Below are positions 5,855 to 60,014 of a stretch of 64,000 nt of DNA, piece after piece. Below the pieces are notes generated by a model. The model saw only the letters and a program-made list of their open reading frames with translations, made no database searches and was not told the DNA's origin. Source of the stretch: Planctomycetota bacterium (lineage in GTDB: Bacteria; Planctomycetota; Phycisphaerae; Sedimentisphaerales; Anaerohalosphaeraceae); NCBI GenBank assembly GCA_019456225.1, contig VRUI01000002.1, positions 62,001 to 126,000 on the forward strand, read 5' to 3'. Position 1 is the first letter of the stretch. Every line of letters starts with the position of its first letter. The position numbers were made by a program, and so were the translations under genes.

Positions 5855-7393
5855 TTAACTCAGTGCGGGCACATCTGTGTTCTGGCCCTGTTGGTCTGCC
5901 TGATCGGCCCTGGCGGCGTTTAGAGCATTAAAGATCGTGTAAACAGTAACGATCCCGCAAGCCCCGTTTTCATCAGCAACGGGCAAGGCCCTGACCGAAT
6001 GTTTGCACATCGTTTCCATCACGACGGCAAGCGTAGCGTCCGGCCGCAAAGTGTGAACCGGCCGGCTCATTATCCATCGCACTTTGATCTGCAAGGTCGC
6101 AGTGTCAAGCTCTCTTTTCCACTTTGAAAATATCGACTGTAAATACGGGCTCAGCGCTCCCTGTATGTCAGATTTTGATACTATACCTTGTATTGCGTCT
6201 GGTTTTCCTATTAGCGCATAGCCTGTGTTTTGCTGCTGCATTTTTGTTAAAACGGCTTCTACTGTGTCGTCCTGTGTTGCCCATGCGATGTCTGTTCGCA
6301 TGACGTTTTGAGCCTGGATATCTGTAAGAAAATTTTCTGTGATCTCACCTGGCAGGACAGCCGGCGAGTGTGTCATCTGCTCGATGACCTTTGATACGGG
6401 ACGATCTTCGTCGACAGTTTCTGTTTCGGATACTGTTTCGAATGGCTGTTCTTCTTTTTCTTCTTCTGTTTCAGGTTCCGTTTCGTCGGCAGCTGGTTCG
6501 GCGTCGGGTACCGGCTCTTCGGAGTCATCAGCTTTTTCGGCAGGTTCTTCGGCTGCTTTTTCTTCTTCTTTTGCCGGTTCTTCTGTCGCTTTTTCTTCGG
6601 CTACTGGTTCTTCATCTGTTTTTTCTGTCGACTCTGTAGGCTGGTCGGCTGGTGGCTCTGTTTTTGCTTCCTCTTCGGCTGCATCGGTTTTTTCAGTGAC
6701 AACTTCTTCTTTTGCTTCTGTTTCGGTTGCAGTTTCTTCAGCTTTGGGTTCTTCTTCTTGCGAAGCTTCTTCGTCAGTTTCCTCTGTTTTTTCTTCTTCT
6801 GACGGTTCTGGCTCAAATACTGATTTTGGGAATGCCGCCATGCAGAGGACGGAATCAAATGGTTCAATGGTCATTTCATATTTGACGGCGACTAGTTCAC
6901 TTTCTTTTGAAAGACCGATATTTTCTTCCGGTTTTAGCCAGGGCTTGCCTATGAATGTACCCGTCTGCAAGAGGTGGACGTGACCTTCCATTTCTTCTCT
7001 GAAGTACTTGTCCCATGATCCTACAAGCAGGTTGCCTACTTCGCCGACGGCGTCAGCGATTTCGTTTGCCTCTTTTTCTTTTCCCGTCCTTCTGTTCTGC
7101 ACGATAATCTTTTCGGGCAGCATTACGAAAGTGCCCGCTATCGTGAAGAGTGCATCCTGATCGAAAAGGATGTAGAAATCGCCGTTAATAACCCCTTTGC
7201 TCTCTATAATGAATACAGCAGTTACTTTTTTGAAATCGCTTTTGAGCTCTTTCATCGTTACGATCTGCTGGTCGGAGGCGGTGCCTTCAACTCCTACACC
7301 AAACATACCTGCGATGTCTTCGCAAAATGCATCAAATGCACCGGCTGTGTGTTCTATGGTACTTTTCTCAAGCTCTGCTATGGTATCAGGCAT
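5855..7393 (-). CDS. CheX/FliY-like phosphatase domain, acidic linker and CBS pair
   Basis: Three parts are visible in 512 aa. Residues 1-~195 resemble CheC/CheX/FliM-family domains and contain the E-x2-N phosphatase signature in EIADAVGEVGNLLVGSW. Residues ~195-345 are an extremely Glu/Thr/Pro/Ala-rich disordered linker. Residues ~360-500 form two CBS motifs (TDIAWATQDDTVEAVLTKM ... GIVSKSDI and IMSRPVHTLRPDATLAVVMETM ... GIVTVYTIF), which usually bind adenine nucleotides. It is the third gene after cheY and cheX on the same strand, 41 bp behind cheX. The likely role is a CheY-P phosphatase or switch partner whose activity responds to nucleotide state; this role is inference. Confidence 0.82.
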   Translation of the reverse strand: MPDTIAELEKSTIEHTAGAFDAFCEDIAGMFGVGVEGTASDQQIVTMKELKSDFKKVTAVFIIESKGVINGDFYILFDQDALFTIAGTFVMLPEKIIVQNRRTGKEKEANEIADAVGEVGNLLVGSWDKYFREEMEGHVHLLQTGTFIGKPWLKPEENIGLSKESELVAVKYEMTIEPFDSVLCMAAFPKSVFEPEPSEEEKTEETDEEASQEEEPKAEETATETEAKEEVVTEKTDAAEEEAKTEPPADQPTESTEKTDEEPVAEEKATEEPAKEEEKAAEEPAEKADDSEEPVPDAEPAADETEPETEEEKEEQPFETVSETETVDEDRPVSKVIEQMTHSPAVLPGEITENFLTDIQAQNVMRTDIAWATQDDTVEAVLTKMQQQNTGYALIGKPDAIQGIVSKSDIQGALSPYLQSIFSKWKRELDTATLQIKVRWIMSRPVHTLRPDATLAVVMETMCKHSVRALPVADENGACGIVTVYTIFNALNAARADQADQQGQNTDVPALS

Positions 7394-7434: not shown

Positions 7435-7908
7435 TCATTTTGCAATGCGATATTGTAATATTAGTTCAGCTACTGATTCGTCGATGTATATAGGCATTAT
7501 AATCTCGACTGATCCTTCTCCAAGGCTGCTTGTAAGTTCTCTTCCGCTTACTACGCATGGTATGGAGACATCGAGATTGCCGACATTCTTTTTAAGCAGG
7601 CTTGCTTTAAGGCTTCCTAACAGCATATTTGCTATCTCGCCTACCGCATCTCGAATTTCGTCCTGGCTAATACCATCATCGCCTTCCATCGCCAACATAT
7701 TGCATGCGATGGTTTTTGCACAATCCTTGTCACAGCAGATAGCCATACATCCTTCAATGCTGCCGGTAAATGTAATGGAACCTAAAAGCGTTTCGCCTTC
7801 GACAGTGATGCAATCCGGGCATTGCTCTACCGACATATAAATCATAGTCTCAAAAACTTCTTTCGCGCTTTCGAGCAGAACATCTTCAAAACAAATCTCA
7901 GTAATCAT
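7435..7908 (-). CDS. cheX: CheX-type chemotaxis phosphatase
   Basis: CheX proteins dephosphorylate CheY-P. The helix DAVGEIANMLLGSLK carries the catalytic E-x2-N motif, and the C-terminal half has the alternating strand pattern of the family (SIPCVVSGREL, VEIIMPIYID). The ATG at 7908 is chosen because GGAAAG lies upstream at usable spacing and the resulting 157 aa is the normal CheX length. A longer frame starting at 7974 has no ribosome-binding site. It sits between cheY and a second, larger CheX-domain protein. Confidence 0.87.
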   Translation of the reverse strand: MITEICFEDVLLESAKEVFETMIYMSVEQCPDCITVEGETLLGSITFTGSIEGCMAICCDKDCAKTIACNMLAMEGDDGISQDEIRDAVGEIANMLLGSLKASLLKKNVGNLDVSIPCVVSGRELTSSLGEGSVEIIMPIYIDESVAELILQYRIAK

Positions 7909-8030
7909 TTTATCATGCACTTTCCGGGAATTCCCATGCTCAAAATAAATATCTCTATTAATGGCATTAGACACAAAAGTTTTCTGTTGTATTCAGGTAT
8001 TCTCTGCTGCCAGTAAAGCTAAAATACAGA

Positions 8031-8405
8031 TCAGTTCATAAATGGCGAGAGGTTTTCCTGTATGCTTTCAGGTGTAAAGGGTTTTGTTACATACCCGTTT
8101 GCACCGTCGGCCAGAACGCCTTCGATGAGCTCTTCCGCACTTTCGGTAGAGATCATAACGATCTTTGTATCAGCACATGAATCCATCTTTCGGACTTCCT
8201 TAACCATTTCCAGGCCGCCCATTCCAGGCATGTTGATATCGCAGAGAATGATGTCAACGGGTTTGTCCTTTAGTTTTTCAAGTGCTTCATTTCCGTCGCC
8301 GGCCTCTTCAAAAGAATCGATATCCAAACCAGCCATCCGTAAGGTTCGAAGAATTATCTTACGCATTGTTGCCGAGTCGTCCACTAATAATAGTGACTTA
8401 GCCAT
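8031..8405 (-). CDS. cheY: Chemotaxis response regulator CheY
   Basis: This is a single receiver domain of 124 aa. The acidic pocket (Asp9, Asp10), phosphoacceptor Asp56, Thr87, Tyr105 and Lys108 are all present, and DINMPGMGG follows the phosphorylation site. When phosphorylated it is expected to bind the flagellar switch (FliM/FliN). AGGAG stands seven bases before the ATG. The gene lies between fliK and cheX in one leftward operon, so flagellar hook control and CheY signalling are co-transcribed. Confidence 0.93.
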   Translation of the reverse strand: MAKSLLLVDDSATMRKIILRTLRMAGLDIDSFEEAGDGNEALEKLKDKPVDIILCDINMPGMGGLEMVKEVRKMDSCADTKIVMISTESAEELIEGVLADGANGYVTKPFTPESIQENLSPFMN

Positions 8406-11975: not shown

Positions 11976-13472
11976 ATGAATTATCTTGAGAACATTTCGG
12001 TAGTCTGGCAGAAGCTTAGCCTCGTTCAGCGGGCTATGCTTATGGCGATACTCGTCGCCGGCGGTATTACGGCGGTATTTTTGACAAAGTGGGCGTCCAA
12101 ACCGGATATGCGTCCTTTATATACTGGCTTAAGTCCGGAAGATGCCAGTAAAGTCACCGAAAAGGTCGCTGAGAAGGGGATTCCATATGTGCTTCGCGGT
12201 TCCGGGAGTATCTATGTTCCTAAAGAACATGTTTATCAGCTTCGTAATGATTGTGCAGGAGCCGGATTGCCGAGCGGTGACAGCTCAGATTACTCGCTTT
12301 TTAGTGAGAACAAGTTTGGTTCGAGTCCTTTTATAAACAATGTTAATTTTAAGCGTGCCCAAGAGGGTGAACTTGCCAAATCCATTCAGGCATTCGATAC
12401 TATTACAAGCGCTCGCGTTCATATTGTTCAGCCTGAACAGAATCCTTTTACGAGTTCAGATCAGAATTCTACTGCCTCTGTCATATTGTATGTCCAGCCG
12501 GGATTCAATATCAGTCAGTCTACCGTCGCCGCGATCACTCATATGGTGGCAGGCGGTGTCGAGGGACTTGTTGCCAATGGGGTTATTGTTGTAGACAGCC
12601 AGGGGCACTTGCTTAGCAATGTCAATGAAAACGGGATATCCGGCAGTGCAAATTCCTTTATGGATTATAAGGAACGTACCGAGCAGAGGCTTGCCGCGAA
12701 TGCTCAGCGTATGCTCGATATATCGCTTGGGCCTGGGCGTTCTTCGATCGTTGTAAGTGCTGTTGTCGATATGGACAGCGAAGAGACAGAGATTATTACC
12801 TACGACAAGGGTGTCGCGAGCGACGAGGGGATTGAAACGATGACCAAGTTAACAGCCAGCGGTAACGATACAGACGGTAATCCGCTAAAGCCTGACGAAG
12901 AAGGTACTGAGAAGATCACGACAACATACCTAATACCGAAGACCGTTAAGAGGACCGTAAAGATGGCGGGTAAAATCATTTCGGTCTCTGTTGCCTGTAC
13001 TGTTGACCTTACTGATACTCCACCGGAAGCTGAAACTGCTGAGGGCGAGACGACGACTCCAGCTCCAGCAGTTACTAATAGAATGGCTGTTGAGGACGTT
13101 GAAGCGCTTATCTTCAATGCACTTGGCAAAGATATACTTACAAAGGAAAATCTTACGGTTATAGATGTTCCATTTTATCGCGCTGCGATACCTGAGCCGG
13201 TTAAAGCACCTTGGCATGTTGCGTATATTGGTATGGTTAAGCAGGGATCACTTGGGATCATGGCGATCTGTGCTTTGCTGGCGCTTAAGATTTTTAGCGG
13301 CAAAGTCAAACCGGGTAAGGGCGGCGCAGTTGCCCAACTCGGAAGCGGCGGTGAAAATGCTGTAGCGGCACTTCCGGCCGGCGATATGAGAGAACAGATT
13401 TCGCTCGCTTACAGGAGCGATCCTGAGCAAGTTAAAGAATTGTTTACCAGTTGGATCGAGGAAAAAGGTTAA
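11976..13472 (+). CDS. fliF: Flagellar MS-ring protein FliF
   Basis: FliF forms the inner-membrane MS ring. It has an N-terminal membrane segment (about 20-40), the YscJ/FliF ring-building region (RPLYTGLSPEDASKV..., ~46-220), and the VHIVQPEQNPF segment typical of the family. A second C-terminal membrane helix (about 413-435) is followed by a cytoplasmic tail that binds FliG. The length of 498 aa is slightly short but within range. GGAG lies 10 bases before the ATG. It is followed by fliG as expected. Confidence 0.95.
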   Translation: MNYLENISVVWQKLSLVQRAMLMAILVAGGITAVFLTKWASKPDMRPLYTGLSPEDASKVTEKVAEKGIPYVLRGSGSIYVPKEHVYQLRNDCAGAGLPSGDSSDYSLFSENKFGSSPFINNVNFKRAQEGELAKSIQAFDTITSARVHIVQPEQNPFTSSDQNSTASVILYVQPGFNISQSTVAAITHMVAGGVEGLVANGVIVVDSQGHLLSNVNENGISGSANSFMDYKERTEQRLAANAQRMLDISLGPGRSSIVVSAVVDMDSEETEIITYDKGVASDEGIETMTKLTASGNDTDGNPLKPDEEGTEKITTTYLIPKTVKRTVKMAGKIISVSVACTVDLTDTPPEAETAEGETTTPAPAVTNRMAVEDVEALIFNALGKDILTKENLTVIDVPFYRAAIPEPVKAPWHVAYIGMVKQGSLGIMAICALLALKIFSGKVKPGKGGAVAQLGSGGENAVAALPAGDMREQISLAYRSDPEQVKELFTSWIEEKG

Positions 13473-13475
13473 ATC

Positions 13476-13496
13476 GTAAGTCGTAAGTAGTAAGTT
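13476..13496. repeat. Heptamer array between fliF and fliG
   Basis: Three units GTAAGTC, GTAAGTA, GTAAGTT begin three bases after the fliF stop codon. The same GTAAGTC unit recurs after fliR at 22678. Confidence 0.72.
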
Positions 13497-13520
13497 GTTT
13501 ATTGTTTTAAGGGTTATTTA

Positions 13521-14516
13521 GTGGCTAAGTTAGTTGGATTACGCAAGGCAGCAACGTTGATCATGGGGCTTGACGGAGTTACGGCTATTGAATTGCTTAA
13601 GGGCCGTCCTCCTGAAGAGGTTCAGGAGATCGCATTGCTGCTGGCACAAGTTGACGCGTCCGGTCAACGGGACACTAAGGAAGAAGATAAAGTTGCGCGT
13701 GAGTTTCTTGATATTCTGCATAAGAGACAGTCGCAGCGATTTAGTATACGTAAGTTCCTCAATGAGATGCTTTCGTCTGTACTTGGTTCCAGTAAGGCCG
13801 AAGAGCTCAAGACTCAAATATTAAATACTACTCAGCAGAAGGATCCGTTTATCGATATTCGTTCTGCAACGACCGACGAACTTGTCCTTGCTCTTAAAGG
13901 TCAGCATCCTCAGACAATAGCTACGGTTATCGGCGAGTTATCGACACAGAAAAGCCAGGATGTACTTGAGCTTCTTGACGAAGAAACCAGGTCGCAGGCG
14001 GTTTTCAGGATGACAAACCTTGAGACTCTTCGTCCAGAAATGAAAAGGCGTATCGCCGAGATGGTTGACGAGCGGCTTGCAAAGTATAAAGGTGAAGTTC
14101 TCCCGGAAGGAAAGGAGCAGACTCTTCGGCGGCTTGCCGTCGTGCTTGGCGGCATGAAAACGCAAATGCGTGATGAACTGCTTGAAGCGATAACCGAAAA
14201 GGATGACGAGATCGGTTCGATGGTTCGTACCCTGATGATTACCTGGGAAGATATTACTTCTATCGCCGACAGGTCGCTTCAGGAATGTCTGCGAAATGTG
14301 GAAGCAGGCAAGATGGCAATTGCCCTGTTCGAGGCCGATTCGGAAATTACGACAAAGTTACGTTCGAATATTTCCGAACGTGCTGTCGAGATGCTTGACG
14401 AAGAAATCTCGCTTATGCAGGAACCGATGGAAGAAGAAGTTACCGAGGCGAGAGAAGAGATCGTTCGCCCGCTTCGCGAGGCTAACGAGGCCGGTACTTT
14501 GAGGATCGAGAAATAA
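13521..14516 (+). CDS. fliG: Flagellar motor switch protein FliG
   Basis: FliG is the rotor protein on the MS ring that contacts the stator. It starts at a GTG and shows the N-terminal FliF-binding domain, the middle domain with the EHPQTIA-like block (KGQHPQTIATVIGELS), and the C-terminal torque domain (SLQECLRNVEAGKMAIALFEAD ... MLDEEISLM). The length of 331 aa is typical. Charged residues for stator contact are present in the C-terminal domain. Confidence 0.95.
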   Translation: MAKLVGLRKAATLIMGLDGVTAIELLKGRPPEEVQEIALLLAQVDASGQRDTKEEDKVAREFLDILHKRQSQRFSIRKFLNEMLSSVLGSSKAEELKTQILNTTQQKDPFIDIRSATTDELVLALKGQHPQTIATVIGELSTQKSQDVLELLDEETRSQAVFRMTNLETLRPEMKRRIAEMVDERLAKYKGEVLPEGKEQTLRRLAVVLGGMKTQMRDELLEAITEKDDEIGSMVRTLMITWEDITSIADRSLQECLRNVEAGKMAIALFEADSEITTKLRSNISERAVEMLDEEISLMQEPMEEEVTEAREEIVRPLREANEAGTLRIEK

Positions 14517-45660: not shown

Positions 45661-46479
45661 ATGTCTGACAGGCGATCAGTTTTCAAATCAGTCAAATCTG
45701 CAACCGTTGCTTTGGCTATAATGACCGAAAGAAACGATGGCAGTTGTCCATTTAAGATTGTAGGTTCTGGGTTTTGTGTTGACAGCATAGGAATCATAGT
45801 AACTTGTAGACATGTCCTTTCTGGTTTCATGCCCCTGCCTATAATGCAACAAATTGACAGGGTTAAGCAGACTGGTAATCTTGCCGTACGCCACACTCCA
45901 CATGTAATTTTTTACGGAACCAATCTTCAGCCAAAGCCTGACCATATCTATTCTGTTCCTACTCAAGTTAGCATATGCTCAGCAAAAACAGACTTTGATG
46001 TAGCTCTTATCAGGGTTAGTCCACATGCTGCATTTCCTAGAGGTTTTCCTTTTTTGGAAATTGAGGATTATGGTAATATATGTGAAGGCGATGAAATTGC
46101 GACATGTGGTTTTCCTTTAGGAAATTATCTACACGACCAAATAGGAACGGCTACAAGTTCATTCACGAAAGGGATAATAAGTTCTATAATCCCCGGACCG
46201 GATGTTCCGAAAAAACACTTAAAAGGTTTTCAGCTAAATCTCACAGCAACCGGTGGTAATAGCGGAGGTCCTGTATTTTCATTGACTACGGGCAAGGTGT
46301 TTGGTGTTTTACAGGGTGGTGTTGTTGATCCTAGAGGGATGATCGTGCCCAATTTAACGAAGGCAGAACCGGTTTACCCGGTTTTCGAACATAATTCCCT
46401 AGAAGAGATGAAAAAGATGGAAATACCAAAAACTGATGCTGATTGTGCTGCTCTTATGAAAAGTGTACGAAAAAAATGA
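45661..46479 (+). CDS. Trypsin-like serine protease (S1 fold)
   Basis: The 272-aa protein shows a complete catalytic triad: His51 in VTCRHVL, Asp113 in DFDVALIRV, and Ser201 in ATGGNSGGPVF. The N-terminal VGSGFCVDSIGIIVTC is the typical first barrel. No signal peptide or membrane segment is visible, so it is probably cytoplasmic, unlike HtrA/DegP, and no PDZ domain follows. The C-terminal tail is short and charged. It precedes an AlbA_2 gene with a similar leader, suggesting a joint system; intracellular proteases of this kind occur in defence modules, which is inference here. Confidence 0.88.
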   Translation: MSDRRSVFKSVKSATVALAIMTERNDGSCPFKIVGSGFCVDSIGIIVTCRHVLSGFMPLPIMQQIDRVKQTGNLAVRHTPHVIFYGTNLQPKPDHIYSVPTQVSICSAKTDFDVALIRVSPHAAFPRGFPFLEIEDYGNICEGDEIATCGFPLGNYLHDQIGTATSSFTKGIISSIIPGPDVPKKHLKGFQLNLTATGGNSGGPVFSLTTGKVFGVLQGGVVDPRGMIVPNLTKAEPVYPVFEHNSLEEMKKMEIPKTDADCAALMKSVRKK

Positions 46480-46498
46480 CAAAGAAGAAATTGGGTTT

Positions 46499-46512
46499 GT
46501 GAATGGATTTAC
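46499..46512 (+). promoter_or_regulatory. Imperfect palindromic leader before the AlbA_2 gene
   Basis: TTGGGTTTGTGAATGGATTTAC parallels the leader at 45593-45612 and is followed, as there, by CCTTTAATT-like sequence before the gene. The palindrome has mismatches near the centre. Confidence 0.4.
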
Positions 46513-46568
46513 ATAAAATACCGTGCCCCTTTAATTATTCTGTAAAGATATTATAGAAAGTTTTGGCG

Positions 46569-47729
46569 ATGCTTCTTGAGTACAATACGAAACGCAACCT
46601 CCAAAGTCTCATTGACAATAGAGTGCCTGAAGGAATAACCATAGATTACAAACAGGCTCTTAATATAGAAAGACCACGCGATAAAAAGGAATTCTTGAAT
46701 GATATTAGTTCCTTTGCAAATACTCAAGGCGGTCATATTATTTATGGCATGAAAGAAGGAAAAGGTATCGCCTCTGAACTATGTGGTATCACATTAGAAA
46801 ACGCTGACACAGAAAAGCAGAAACTTGAAAATCTTATCCGTGATGGTTTAGAACCGAGAGCATATGGTATACATATAGAACCTATCATATTAAGTGATGA
46901 TAAATACGCACTTGTTATCCGAATTCCCAGAAGTTACAACCCTCCCCATATGGTAATAATTGATGGACATCGTAAGTTTTATGGCCGAAATTCATCTGGA
47001 AAATACCCCTTAAACGTTGAGGATTTACGTGTTATATTTGGTCTTGCGGATGAAATCACAAAGAAAGCAAAGGAATTCTGTTACGACAGACTTTTTAAAA
47101 TCAAATCCGGTCAACCCCCTGTTCCTTTGTTAGAAGGACCAAAGTACGTCCTACATTTAATTCCTTTTGGCTCTTTTAGGCCGACTGGCAATTATGACTT
47201 GTCTCAATTTAGCAAAGATCATAACAATTTGCCTAATATCCAGTATAAAGTTCACGATGGCAGATATAACTTTGATGGTTATGTTACACATAAGGGGTAT
47301 TTTAATAGTAGCGATTCAAAGCCAACTCATTCGTACACCCAAATTTTTCGTAATGGCATAATCGAAGCAGTTTATATGGAATATAATCCTAGCGCGGAAG
47401 GTAAAATAAATAAGATAATAAACCTAGATTGTGAACGCATGATAATAAATGCAATGAAAAAATATTTAGACATACAACAAAGTATAGGGATTACCCCACC
47501 GGTATTCGTTATATTTACTCTTCTTGGAGTAAAAAATGTTCGTATTGGGCGTCGTGTGTTTAGTGAATTAGAACCTATAGATTATTCTATTCCTTTCACG
47601 CAAGATGATTTAATCTTGCCGGAGATTGTTTTTTCAAATTTTGACAATTCTCAAATTGAACAACAGGTGCGTCAGGTTTTTGATATTGTGCTTAATACTG
47701 CTAATCTTACACGCGAGAATATAACATAG
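46569..47729 (+). CDS. AlbA_2 (Schlafen-like) domain protein
   Basis: Residues ~5-155 match the AlbA_2/divergent AAA-4 domain: ITIDYKQALN (the E/D-x-K-like start), EFLNDISSFANTQGGHIIYGMKEGKG, LENLIRDGLEPRAYGIHIEPI, and HRKFYGRNSSGKYPLNVEDLRVIF. These domains occur in predicted nucleic-acid-binding regulators and Schlafen-like effectors. The ~230-residue C-terminal part is not recognised. The ATG at 46569 is preferred to a TTG two codons upstream. Codon usage appears more AT-rich than in the flagellar genes, suggesting transfer. Confidence 0.85.
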   Translation: MLLEYNTKRNLQSLIDNRVPEGITIDYKQALNIERPRDKKEFLNDISSFANTQGGHIIYGMKEGKGIASELCGITLENADTEKQKLENLIRDGLEPRAYGIHIEPIILSDDKYALVIRIPRSYNPPHMVIIDGHRKFYGRNSSGKYPLNVEDLRVIFGLADEITKKAKEFCYDRLFKIKSGQPPVPLLEGPKYVLHLIPFGSFRPTGNYDLSQFSKDHNNLPNIQYKVHDGRYNFDGYVTHKGYFNSSDSKPTHSYTQIFRNGIIEAVYMEYNPSAEGKINKIINLDCERMIINAMKKYLDIQQSIGITPPVFVIFTLLGVKNVRIGRRVFSELEPIDYSIPFTQDDLILPEIVFSNFDNSQIEQQVRQVFDIVLNTANLTRENIT

Positions 47730-47840
47730 CCTTGTATGATTGGTTGATTATTAAGACATGCTGAGTTATTTAATTAAAGAGCTTGGCCGAGTCTGCCATA
47801 GGTGGATAAATATTGTTAGGCCTAAAAGGAGATATAGAAA

Positions 47841-48809
47841 TTGCCAGATCAAGAAAAAAAACATGATCTATTTGATTTTATGTCTCAAATTAGTGTGGAG
47901 ATGGCTTCCGAATATAATCGCATTCAAAAGCGTGCCACTGAAGACCCTGGAACAGCTGGAGATCAAGGTGAAGAAAATTGGGCGGCTTTATTAAGAGATT
48001 GGTTGCCGCCAACATATCAGATTGTGACAAAAGGAAGAATCATTAGCCATGAAGGAAAGACTAGCCCGCAAATTGATGTGCTGGTATTAAAGTCTTCCTA
48101 TCCAAAAAAGTTACTGGATAAAAAAGTTTATTTAGCTGCTGGGGTAGCGGCAGCCTTTGAATGCAAAGTAACACTGAAAGCTTCGCATATTACAGAAGCC
48201 ATCGAAAACTGTGTCGAAATAAAGAATTTATTTCCAGCTCGAAAAGGTTCTCCGTATAAAGAACTTCATTCCCCAATTGTGTATGGCTTGCTAGCACATT
48301 CTCATAATTGGAAAGGGAAAAAATCAACTCCTTTGGAAAATATTGAAAATAAGCTGCTCGAAAAAGATCAAAAGTTCGTTGATCATCCTAGAAAAGCACT
48401 TGACCTTGTTTGTGTGGCAGACCTAGCAGCTTGGGTTTTATTCAAAATGACATTTTATGGGCCAAAACAATCTAAGGATTGGGAAAGAATGGCTCCAATT
48501 TATGGAACTTTGGGATCAGCTTCGACGGGATACATAGAGCATAGCAAAAATAGTTTGAACCAGGAAAGTCATTTCACGCCAGTTGGAACATTCATTTCAT
48601 ATCTATCCAAGAGCCTTGCGTGGGAAAATCATGAGTATAGGAGCTTGGCGGACTATTATAGAATCACGTATATTAGTGGCTCAGGACAAGGCACCAGTAT
48701 GAGAAGGTGGAGTGCAGATATTTATTCTGATGACATCAGGACAAAAGTTGAAAATGGCATGTTGAGTAATGGAGCTCCTTGGGATGAATGGTCAATCTGC
48801 TTTCCATAG
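47841..48809 (+). CDS. DUF6602-type predicted nuclease
   Basis: The 322-aa protein starts at a TTG with a near-perfect ribosome-binding site (AAAGGAGA, eight bases upstream). The N-terminal half carries GEENWAALLRDWLPPTYQIVTKGRI, then SPQIDVLVL with Asp79, and AAFECKVTL with Glu107 and Lys109. This is a D...E-x-K arrangement of the PD-(D/E)xK nuclease fold, and the family resembles DUF6602. The C-terminal half is not recognised. It lies 111 bp behind the AlbA_2 gene on the same strand and has similar AT-rich codon use. Confidence 0.78.
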   Translation: MPDQEKKHDLFDFMSQISVEMASEYNRIQKRATEDPGTAGDQGEENWAALLRDWLPPTYQIVTKGRIISHEGKTSPQIDVLVLKSSYPKKLLDKKVYLAAGVAAAFECKVTLKASHITEAIENCVEIKNLFPARKGSPYKELHSPIVYGLLAHSHNWKGKKSTPLENIENKLLEKDQKFVDHPRKALDLVCVADLAAWVLFKMTFYGPKQSKDWERMAPIYGTLGSASTGYIEHSKNSLNQESHFTPVGTFISYLSKSLAWENHEYRSLADYYRITYISGSGQGTSMRRWSADIYSDDIRTKVENGMLSNGAPWDEWSICFP

Positions 48810-59030: not shown

Positions 59031-60014
59031 CTAATTATTTAATTCATTGCCAGGTTTCACCATATCCGATACTGCCAGCGCATACCTGTTCAAAGTCTTT
59101 GCCGGAAAACCGTGAAAAAACACCTTATCTTCGATGATCGCTTCAACCGGTTCGCTGGCCTTTCTGTCGAGGACGATCACATCTCCTACAGACAGATTCA
59201 TAAGATTAGATATCGCTACGGTCGCTTTTCCCAGAAGAACATCGACTTCGATGGGTATTTCATTAAGATTGGAAATCACCGCGTCCTTGACTTGCTGGGT
59301 CTTCGACTGCTTTTCGTCTGGAAAAGGTATTTCCAGCATCGGACCAAACTGACTCGACAAAACAACCAGTGAGGCTTCGACTGTGCTTTCGCTTTGCTTA
59401 ACCTGTAATTGCAACAGTGTAAACTCTTCATAGTCCATGCACTCTATTGGCCAGTCTCGGTCGGAAATAACTGACAAACTGCGAACACCTGAAAGTTCCT
59501 GCTTGATGAGTAATTCCGAAAACCTGCTCAAAAGATTTTCGCAAAGATCAACGAGCAGTAACTCTTCGAGATTCGACATTTCATACTCTTCAGCAACTTC
59601 CTCGTTTATATCACCAAGCATCTTCGACGTCCACTGAATCGCGGACAAATAAGGTAATATCAAAACACCGATCTCACGATTACTCCCGTCGGTAAAAACC
59701 ATATAAAAGTTTTTCTTATCTTCACAAAGCTCTTTCCTTATGCCCTCGCAGTAAAACTCCTTAACTGGAGGAATGATCACGCTGGACGGCTCGTTGCACA
59801 TCTCGGAAAACTCCTCGGCAAGGTCAGCGGAAAACTGAGTACAAAATTGTGACAGCATCACACGATGAGTCTCACTGAACTGATGCGGACGCTTCCAGTC
59901 ATAGTCGATTGCTTCAACGTCACTGTCGTCAACCGGACCATTGTCCCTGGCTGCGGCAAGAATCTCTCTCAGCTTATTTCTGGTTAATCTAATGTTATCG
60001 TCAGCTTCGGTCAT
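59031..60014 (-). CDS. fliM: Flagellar motor switch protein FliM
   Basis: FliM binds CheY-P and controls rotation. The middle CheC-like domain (about 55-235) and the C-terminal SpoA domain (about 245-325, EIPIEVDVLLGKATVAISNLMNLSVGDVIVLDRKASEPVEAII) are present. The N-terminal CheY-binding peptide, normally LSQxEIDALL, is here LTRNKLREIL: the hydrophobic spacing is kept but the acidic residues are replaced by basic ones. The ATG overlaps the fliL stop (ATGA). Confidence 0.91.
   Translation of the reverse strand: MTEADDNIRLTRNKLREILAAARDNGPVDDSDVEAIDYDWKRPHQFSETHRVMLSQFCTQFSADLAEEFSEMCNEPSSVIIPPVKEFYCEGIRKELCEDKKNFYMVFTDGSNREIGVLILPYLSAIQWTSKMLGDINEEVAEEYEMSNLEELLLVDLCENLLSRFSELLIKQELSGVRSLSVISDRDWPIECMDYEEFTLLQLQVKQSESTVEASLVVLSSQFGPMLEIPFPDEKQSKTQQVKDAVISNLNEIPIEVDVLLGKATVAISNLMNLSVGDVIVLDRKASEPVEAIIEDKVFFHGFPAKTLNRYALAVSDMVKPGNELNN

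Follow-up and report, generated by a model that had tools for sequence, protein, structure and literature searches.

A planctomycete protein that joins a CheC/CheX-clan domain to a CBS pair through a variable acidic linker, encoded beside cheY and cheX: a putative second CheY-P phosphatase

The DNA analysed here (the window, a stretch of 64,000 nucleotides from a bacterium of the Planctomycetota) carries at 5855..7393 on the minus strand a gene, recognised from its open reading frame and Pfam matches, whose 512-aa product consists of a CheC/CheX-clan domain, an acidic linker and a CBS pair (CheX-CBS hereafter). The preliminary description had placed a gene at these positions and the gene is real, although it has to be read from the minus strand, where translation gives a single 512-aa frame, while the plus strand is full of stops. 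Its statement that the gene follows cheY and cheX was borne out by Pfam: directly upstream on the same strand, 41 bases away, lies a stand-alone cheX (7435..7974, minus strand, Pfam CheX 72.3 bits), followed by cheY, encoding a single-domain response regulator (8031..8405, minus strand, Pfam Response_reg 94.8 bits; top NCBIfam match the E. coli-type CheY, below its cut-off), and beyond cheY by fliK and a flagellar cluster. Alignment of the cheX family suggests a start at the ATG at 7908 rather than at the GTG at 7974. Promoter and terminator scans both stayed at chance level (8 promoters found vs 9.0 expected; 9 terminators found vs 6.4 expected). The single CheA of the genome is located elsewhere, together with cheR, cheD and cheB, and separate FliM and FliN-like genes are present besides the CheX-CBS gene. 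The FliM-type protein of the window (59031-60014) is very divergent in the lineage, with 20-34% identity to its relatives and a mean column identity of 34% vs 52% for the CheX-CBS N-terminal domain. Elsewhere in the window, a low-G+C stretch within the flagellar region (45661-48809; G+C 0.367 at 46-48 kb) codes for a trypsin-like protease, a Schlafen AlbA_2 protein and a DUF6602 protein and looks like an inserted island, and two adjoining frames at 1234-2440 give the sequence impression of split CoaBC halves as separate genes.

The N-terminal phosphatase-like domain (residues 1-193; 6815..7393, minus strand) was assigned to the CheC/CheX/FliY clan from a sub-threshold Pfam match, an AlphaFold2 model, and Foldseek and VIA comparisons. 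Against a cut-off of 27, Pfam CheX scores 23.6 bits for the whole protein and 26.0 bits for residues 1-193 alone, reaching 27.1 bits only when frame neighbours are included, and at E 0.01 it matches just 4 of 23 family members. NCBIfam holds no family for residues 1-193 and gives only weak matches for the whole protein, with no match to FliY; PHROGs gave no match, and a single-sequence phmmer search of the PDB with residues 1-197 returned nothing but an antibody chain (E 0.97), so the fold was taken from the structure model. AlphaFold2 on residues 1-193 with 57 sequences gave pLDDT 94.7 and pTM 0.90. The top Foldseek match of this model is Thermotoga FliY (4hyn, E 7e-10, TMq 0.77), followed by FliM, CheC (1xkr/2f9z, E about 1e-8) and CheX (1xko, E 7e-7); VIA-align ranks the FliM middle domain first (Z 19.6, rmsd 2.6, 176 aligned), then FliY (Z 18.3, rmsd 3.0, 181 aligned), CheC (Z 15.9, rmsd 3.6, 181 aligned) and CheX (Z 13.4, rmsd 3.0, 149 aligned), with unrelated folds at or below 3.1. 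The matches to FliY, the FliM middle domain, CheC and CheX span nearly the whole domain. Because of these rankings the model identifies it as a CheC-clan domain of FliY/FliM/CheC size and not as CheX proper. The preliminary description had called it a CheX-type domain and had named structure prediction of the N-terminal part as a check; the predicted fold is indeed of the CheC clan, but its nearest folds are FliY, FliM and CheC rather than CheX. At the sequence level the leaning is the opposite: when profiles are compared, a match to the family of the adjacent CheX appears over residues 60-130, the active-site region (E 1.3e-4, probability 54%), and none to the FliM of the lineage. Among PDB sequences FliY is the sole coherent profile match (E 0.013). 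A FliM paralogue was considered, and the domain is not called one because hhalign with the lineage's own FliM gave only E 0.24.

The active-site stretch D114-E118-N121 (D-x3-E-x2-N; 7031..7054, minus strand) was defined on an alignment of 57 N-terminal domains (A4), made up of the window copy and 56 of the 68 loci of the family described below (loci carry L numbers, genomes G numbers); L039, L053 and L077, with several matches per frame, were left out, as were L079, L080, L088, L091, L094, L096, L097, L098 and L100, where the domain is missing or cut short. The E-x2-N phosphatase motif noted earlier is confirmed as E118-V-G-N121, with E and N each kept in 54 of 57 sequences. D114 and H140 (6974..6976, minus strand) are each kept in 53, all four residues together likewise in 53 of 57, and every exception falls in one of four loci (L045, L056, L081 and L090; L045 and L056 are 76% identical). 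Since H140 is missing from the same four loci, and no others, in which D114, E118 or N121 is changed, it may be a further active-site residue. Outside the active-site helix the four degenerate copies keep 18-19 of 21 conserved positions; the copies of G059 and G060 carry D114N/E118D/N121K and keep 18 of 21. In the CheC family the motif is commonly extended by x22-P, a proline 23 residues after the asparagine, which is not taken as defining; the corresponding position here is T144 and not proline (column T 33, S 9 of 57). Compared by eye with CheC, the domain shows no evident counterpart of the first of the two active sites of the CheC type. In the CheC/CheX/FliY family the asparagine positions the attacking water, and an acidic side chain forms a pair with the lysine of the receiver (PMC3035606).

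The domain is followed by an acidic low-complexity linker (residues 194-331; 6401..6814, minus strand), recognised by composition and variable in relatives. An acidic disordered linker of about 150 residues had been proposed; the acidic low-complexity character holds, while the length is 138 aa, of which 45% are D+E, 9% K+R and a single residue belongs to the set WFYILMC, giving a net charge of -50. In relatives the linker ranges from about 23 to 319 residues, has no conserved sequence and is poor in hydrophobics (length table n=56, of which the four values for L039, L042, L053 and L077 are artefacts caused by match limits that had widened). Because it is long, variable and hydrophobic-poor, we read it as a leash and not as an allosteric relay.

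The C-terminal CBS pair (Bateman module, residues 332-512; 5858..6400, minus strand) was assigned by Pfam, AlphaFold2 and VIA: Pfam CBS matches two stretches (72.2 bits; cut-off 24), and the model has pLDDT 89.0 and matches AcuB with AMP and ADP best (VIA Z 16.9, rmsd 5.1, 145 aligned), with many other CBS pairs, including CBSX2-AMP and AMPK gamma, close behind. The CBS alignment (A5, 62 sequences: the window and 61 loci) includes L079, L080, L091 and L100, where the phosphatase domain is absent or cut off, and leaves out the arm-CBS copies (described below) of L045, L056, L088, L094, L096, L097 and L098, as well as L073 and L095. Between the two CBS motifs it reveals a conserved segment (residues 413-442, of the type SPYL..FAKWRRP.DDATLQIK.KWIM; 6068..6157, minus strand) in which S415, Y417, F422, D430 and A432 are invariant in 62 of 62 sequences. 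S/T-x2-D is the ribose-binding motif of CBS sites. Site 1 keeps it as S406-x2-D409 (column S 59, D 45, N 14 of 62), whereas site 2 reads T483-x2-T486 in the window copy, where 50 of 62 sequences have D at position 486; the motif is thus retained at the first site and the acid of the second is replaced. The preliminary description, noting that CBS pairs usually sense AMP/ATP or related nucleotides, had suggested a coupling of cell energy state to CheY-P turnover. Such an energy sensor, in which the CBS pair reads AMP, ADP or ATP and allosterically tunes the phosphatase rate so that energy sets the CheY-P lifetime, would agree with the retained site 1, with the fold matches to nucleotide-bound CBS pairs and to AMPK gamma, and with the strict fusion of both domains, but the variation of the unconserved linker makes it ill-suited to direct relay, the acid of site 2 is lost in the window copy, and CbpB, which binds c-di-AMP, is also a weak NCBIfam match of the whole protein. 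We regard the energy sensor as possible but rather unlikely.

The preliminary description had proposed a domain search for CheX plus CBS fusions. A scan of 84,980 species (one genome each) yielded a conserved family at 68 loci, nearly all with planctomycete titles (Planctomycetota, Planctomycetes, Phycisphaerae, Phycisphaerales, Sedimentisphaerales or uncultured bacterium, and one Candidatus Kuenenia, a name that likewise belongs to the planctomycetes); the scan patterns were built from the CheX-CBS family itself, and distant CheX and CBS fusions elsewhere may escape them. Both parts score above the limits in 56 frames of the 68 loci, the remaining loci being contig-end cuts, split frames, CBS copies without the domain (L080, L091) and arm-CBS paralogues. 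Across the class, the N-terminal domain occurs in 30 of 298 genomes, all 30 of them in the window's own order, and the CBS pair lies in the same frame in all 30 class loci read. Strong matches to the CheX-CBS gene were found in 31 of 59 relatives searched, a count that leaves out G038, which matches only generic CBS. Both halves show about 35-55% identity in relatives and the linker is not conserved, and on this sequence evidence the fusion is far beyond chance. The earlier remark that this combination is not known from described chemotaxis systems agrees with the literature searched, in which no paper describes a CheC/CheX-type domain fused to a CBS pair. Each of the components is known already; what is apparently new, at least to us, is how they are combined and that the gene keeps a constant position next to cheY and cheX within a single order.

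The gene is linked to chemotaxis through its neighbours cheY and cheX and, in relatives, cheA as well. Among the 50 loci that offer 1.5 kb or more of upstream sequence, cheX lies directly upstream in 44 and the full cheY-cheX pair in 43, and cheA lies directly downstream in 28 of the 46 loci having at least 2.5 kb downstream (recounted with frames over 300 aa); an apparent cheA near L090 proved to be an Hpt-CBS protein. The row at L051 reads CheA, CheR, CheD, receiver-CheX fusion, Hpt, CheD and CheB, the fusion (12942-13790) being a response-regulator receiver joined to a CheX domain within the che string and beside two cheD genes. Where cheX is adjacent, all 44 loci have E and N intact, vs 2 of 6 where it is not (Fisher p 6.5e-5, uncorrected for relatedness). 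All six genomes without an adjacent cheX match FliF (G059 with a fragment only), and five of them show no CheA (G059, G060, G062, G063 and G064), while a control set with the full string (G065-G070) has CheA in 6 of 6 and FliF in 5 of 6. The four active-site exceptions all stand without a neighbouring cheX, three of them in genomes that have no CheA and keep FliF (one as a fragment). This link between active site and CheA is not perfect, because G061, with a broken site, has a CheA (in a shorter frame of 539 aa), and L049 and L082 have intact sites without CheA. Incomplete metagenome-assembled genomes can explain part of the missing CheA, which is unlikely for G059 and G060, by their titles two single-record chromosomes without CheA in which the active site is gone.

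Linkage to the flagellum was also found among the relatives: FliF is present in 31 of 31 with the gene vs 15 of 28 without (Fisher p 9e-6), and CheA in 25 of 31 vs 8 of 28 (p 7e-5), neither test being corrected for relatedness; the association with CheA weakens when only genomes with a flagellum are compared (25 of 31 vs 7 of 15, p 0.038, likewise uncorrected). The family is kept in flagellated genomes without CheA, including G053, G057 and G060, some with a broken active site. These patterns could mean that CheX-CBS is first of all a motor protein, a FliM-middle/FliY-like, rotor-associated part with a structural or regulatory role at the switch and a phosphatase activity that is secondary or lost. 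The FliM middle domain, which is not a phosphatase, and FliY stand at the top of the VIA list; besides the FliF figures, 6 of 31 holders of the gene are without CheA, G059 and G060 keep the gene with all three active-site residues changed, the degenerate copies retain the conserved positions noted above, and FliY of Epsilonproteobacteria and Leptospira is likewise without active sites (PMC6946799). The Pfam SPOA/FliN domain (PF01052) is, however, absent from CheX-CBS and present in the FliM-type protein of the window, separate FliM and FliN-like genes exist, the profile comparison with FliM finds nothing, and E and N are kept wherever cheX is adjacent. We consider a protein that serves the motor first improbable.

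The same CBS type was found at eight loci on long charged or helical arms in place of the phosphatase domain (arm-CBS). In three of the eight (L088, L094, L097) flgE is the neighbour or next neighbour, in two (L045, L056) the arm-CBS gene lies directly upstream of a degenerate CheX-CBS gene, and three show neither context. One explanation is general docking, in which the CBS pair of the lineage pairs with arm-CBS proteins and carries several cargoes, the phosphatase domain being one of them; the shared CBS subfamily and both of these contexts speak for it, but arm-CBS copies are rare (2 among the 59 relatives) and 5 of the 8 loci have no flgE nearby, and we doubt that general docking is the answer. 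Other CBS fusions were observed in passing. At L090 (4031-4921) an Hpt domain precedes a CBS pair, a second chemotaxis-type CBS fusion; its gene adjoins a CheX-CBS copy that carries E118Q, and the genome gave no match to CheA. A match on contig C89 of the window's own genome was ruled out as a second CheX-CBS, having no phosphatase domain; this CBS-pair paralogue (L030, 6062-7453) has a zinc-knuckle-like N-terminus (CxxC...HWP...C) and a charged arm, lies beside genes that by eye resemble a Ser/Thr kinase and an FHA protein, and shares a similar motif with L096.

Among known systems, FliY resembles CheX-CBS as its top Foldseek match, in fusing a phosphatase-type domain to a second module and in its flagellar gene linkage, but the second module is a SPOA/FliN domain there and a CBS pair on a long linker here. 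CheX and CheC share the clan fold and the D-x3-E-x2-N motif, and the CheX-CBS gene stands in one string with cheY and a true cheX; they differ in that the present domain is fused to a CBS pair and falls below the Pfam CheX cut-off, and solved CheX chains have about 150 residues against 193 here. AcuB and other Bateman proteins have the CBS-pair fold in common with CheX-CBS, which differs from them by its lineage-specific invariant inter-CBS segment and by the leash behind a phosphatase-like domain. In Leptospira a CheC/CheX domain is likewise fused to a further chemotaxis component, but the partner is CheA and not CBS (PMC10782961, the main text of which does not mention CBS).

We propose, with about an even chance of being right, that CheX-CBS is a lineage-specific second CheY-P phosphatase held by a leash, the CBS end of which anchors or oligomerises it, probably in a nucleotide-dependent way. 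This proposal builds on the predicted fold and on the observed active site, gene context, domain coupling and lineage range, and from these we infer catalysis, docking, partner and nucleotide. Following the scheme of the CheC/CheX/FliY family, the N-terminal CheC/FliY-like domain would bind CheY-P and insert E118, which would form a salt bridge with the lysine of the receiver, while N121 would place the water for its attack. The linker, long and flexible, would serve as the leash, and the CBS pair as the fixed end that dimerises the protein or docks it, probably on or near the flagellar or chemosensory machinery. A bound adenine nucleotide probably sets the state of the CBS pair and would alter the place or density of the held phosphatase rather than transmit a shape change through the linker. 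Docking is suggested by the properties of the linker, the invariant inter-CBS segment and the position of arm-CBS genes near flgE, although in only 3 of 8 loci. CheY-P hydrolysis is likely the original chemistry, because the domain belongs to this clan, its active site is conserved and its gene lies in a string with cheY and cheX; catalysis cannot be the sole role, because flagellated genomes that have no CheA still keep the gene, some of them with a broken site, and its retention there needs a further role, perhaps at the motor.

In a bolder form, which we think unlikely, the CBS pair would be a nucleotide-gated flagellum anchor, the counterpart of the SPOA domain of FliY, keeping a leashed CheC-like phosphatase at the motor or at the signalling complex. 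In lineages that retained the flagellum but lost chemotaxis, with CheA and the neighbouring cheY and cheX gone, CheX-CBS would continue as a pseudo-phosphatase with a motor role, the anchor being its core function. The active-site losses parallel the catalytically dead FliY, and these natural losses, with the site broken only where no cheX is adjacent and the gene kept with the flagellum, make anchor versus catalysis testable. CheY-P removal sets the duration of the swimming signal, and the evolutionary coupling of a phosphatase-like domain with a CBS pair would offer a new means to place or tune this removal, perhaps through nucleotide state. The order concerned is represented here largely by metagenome bins.
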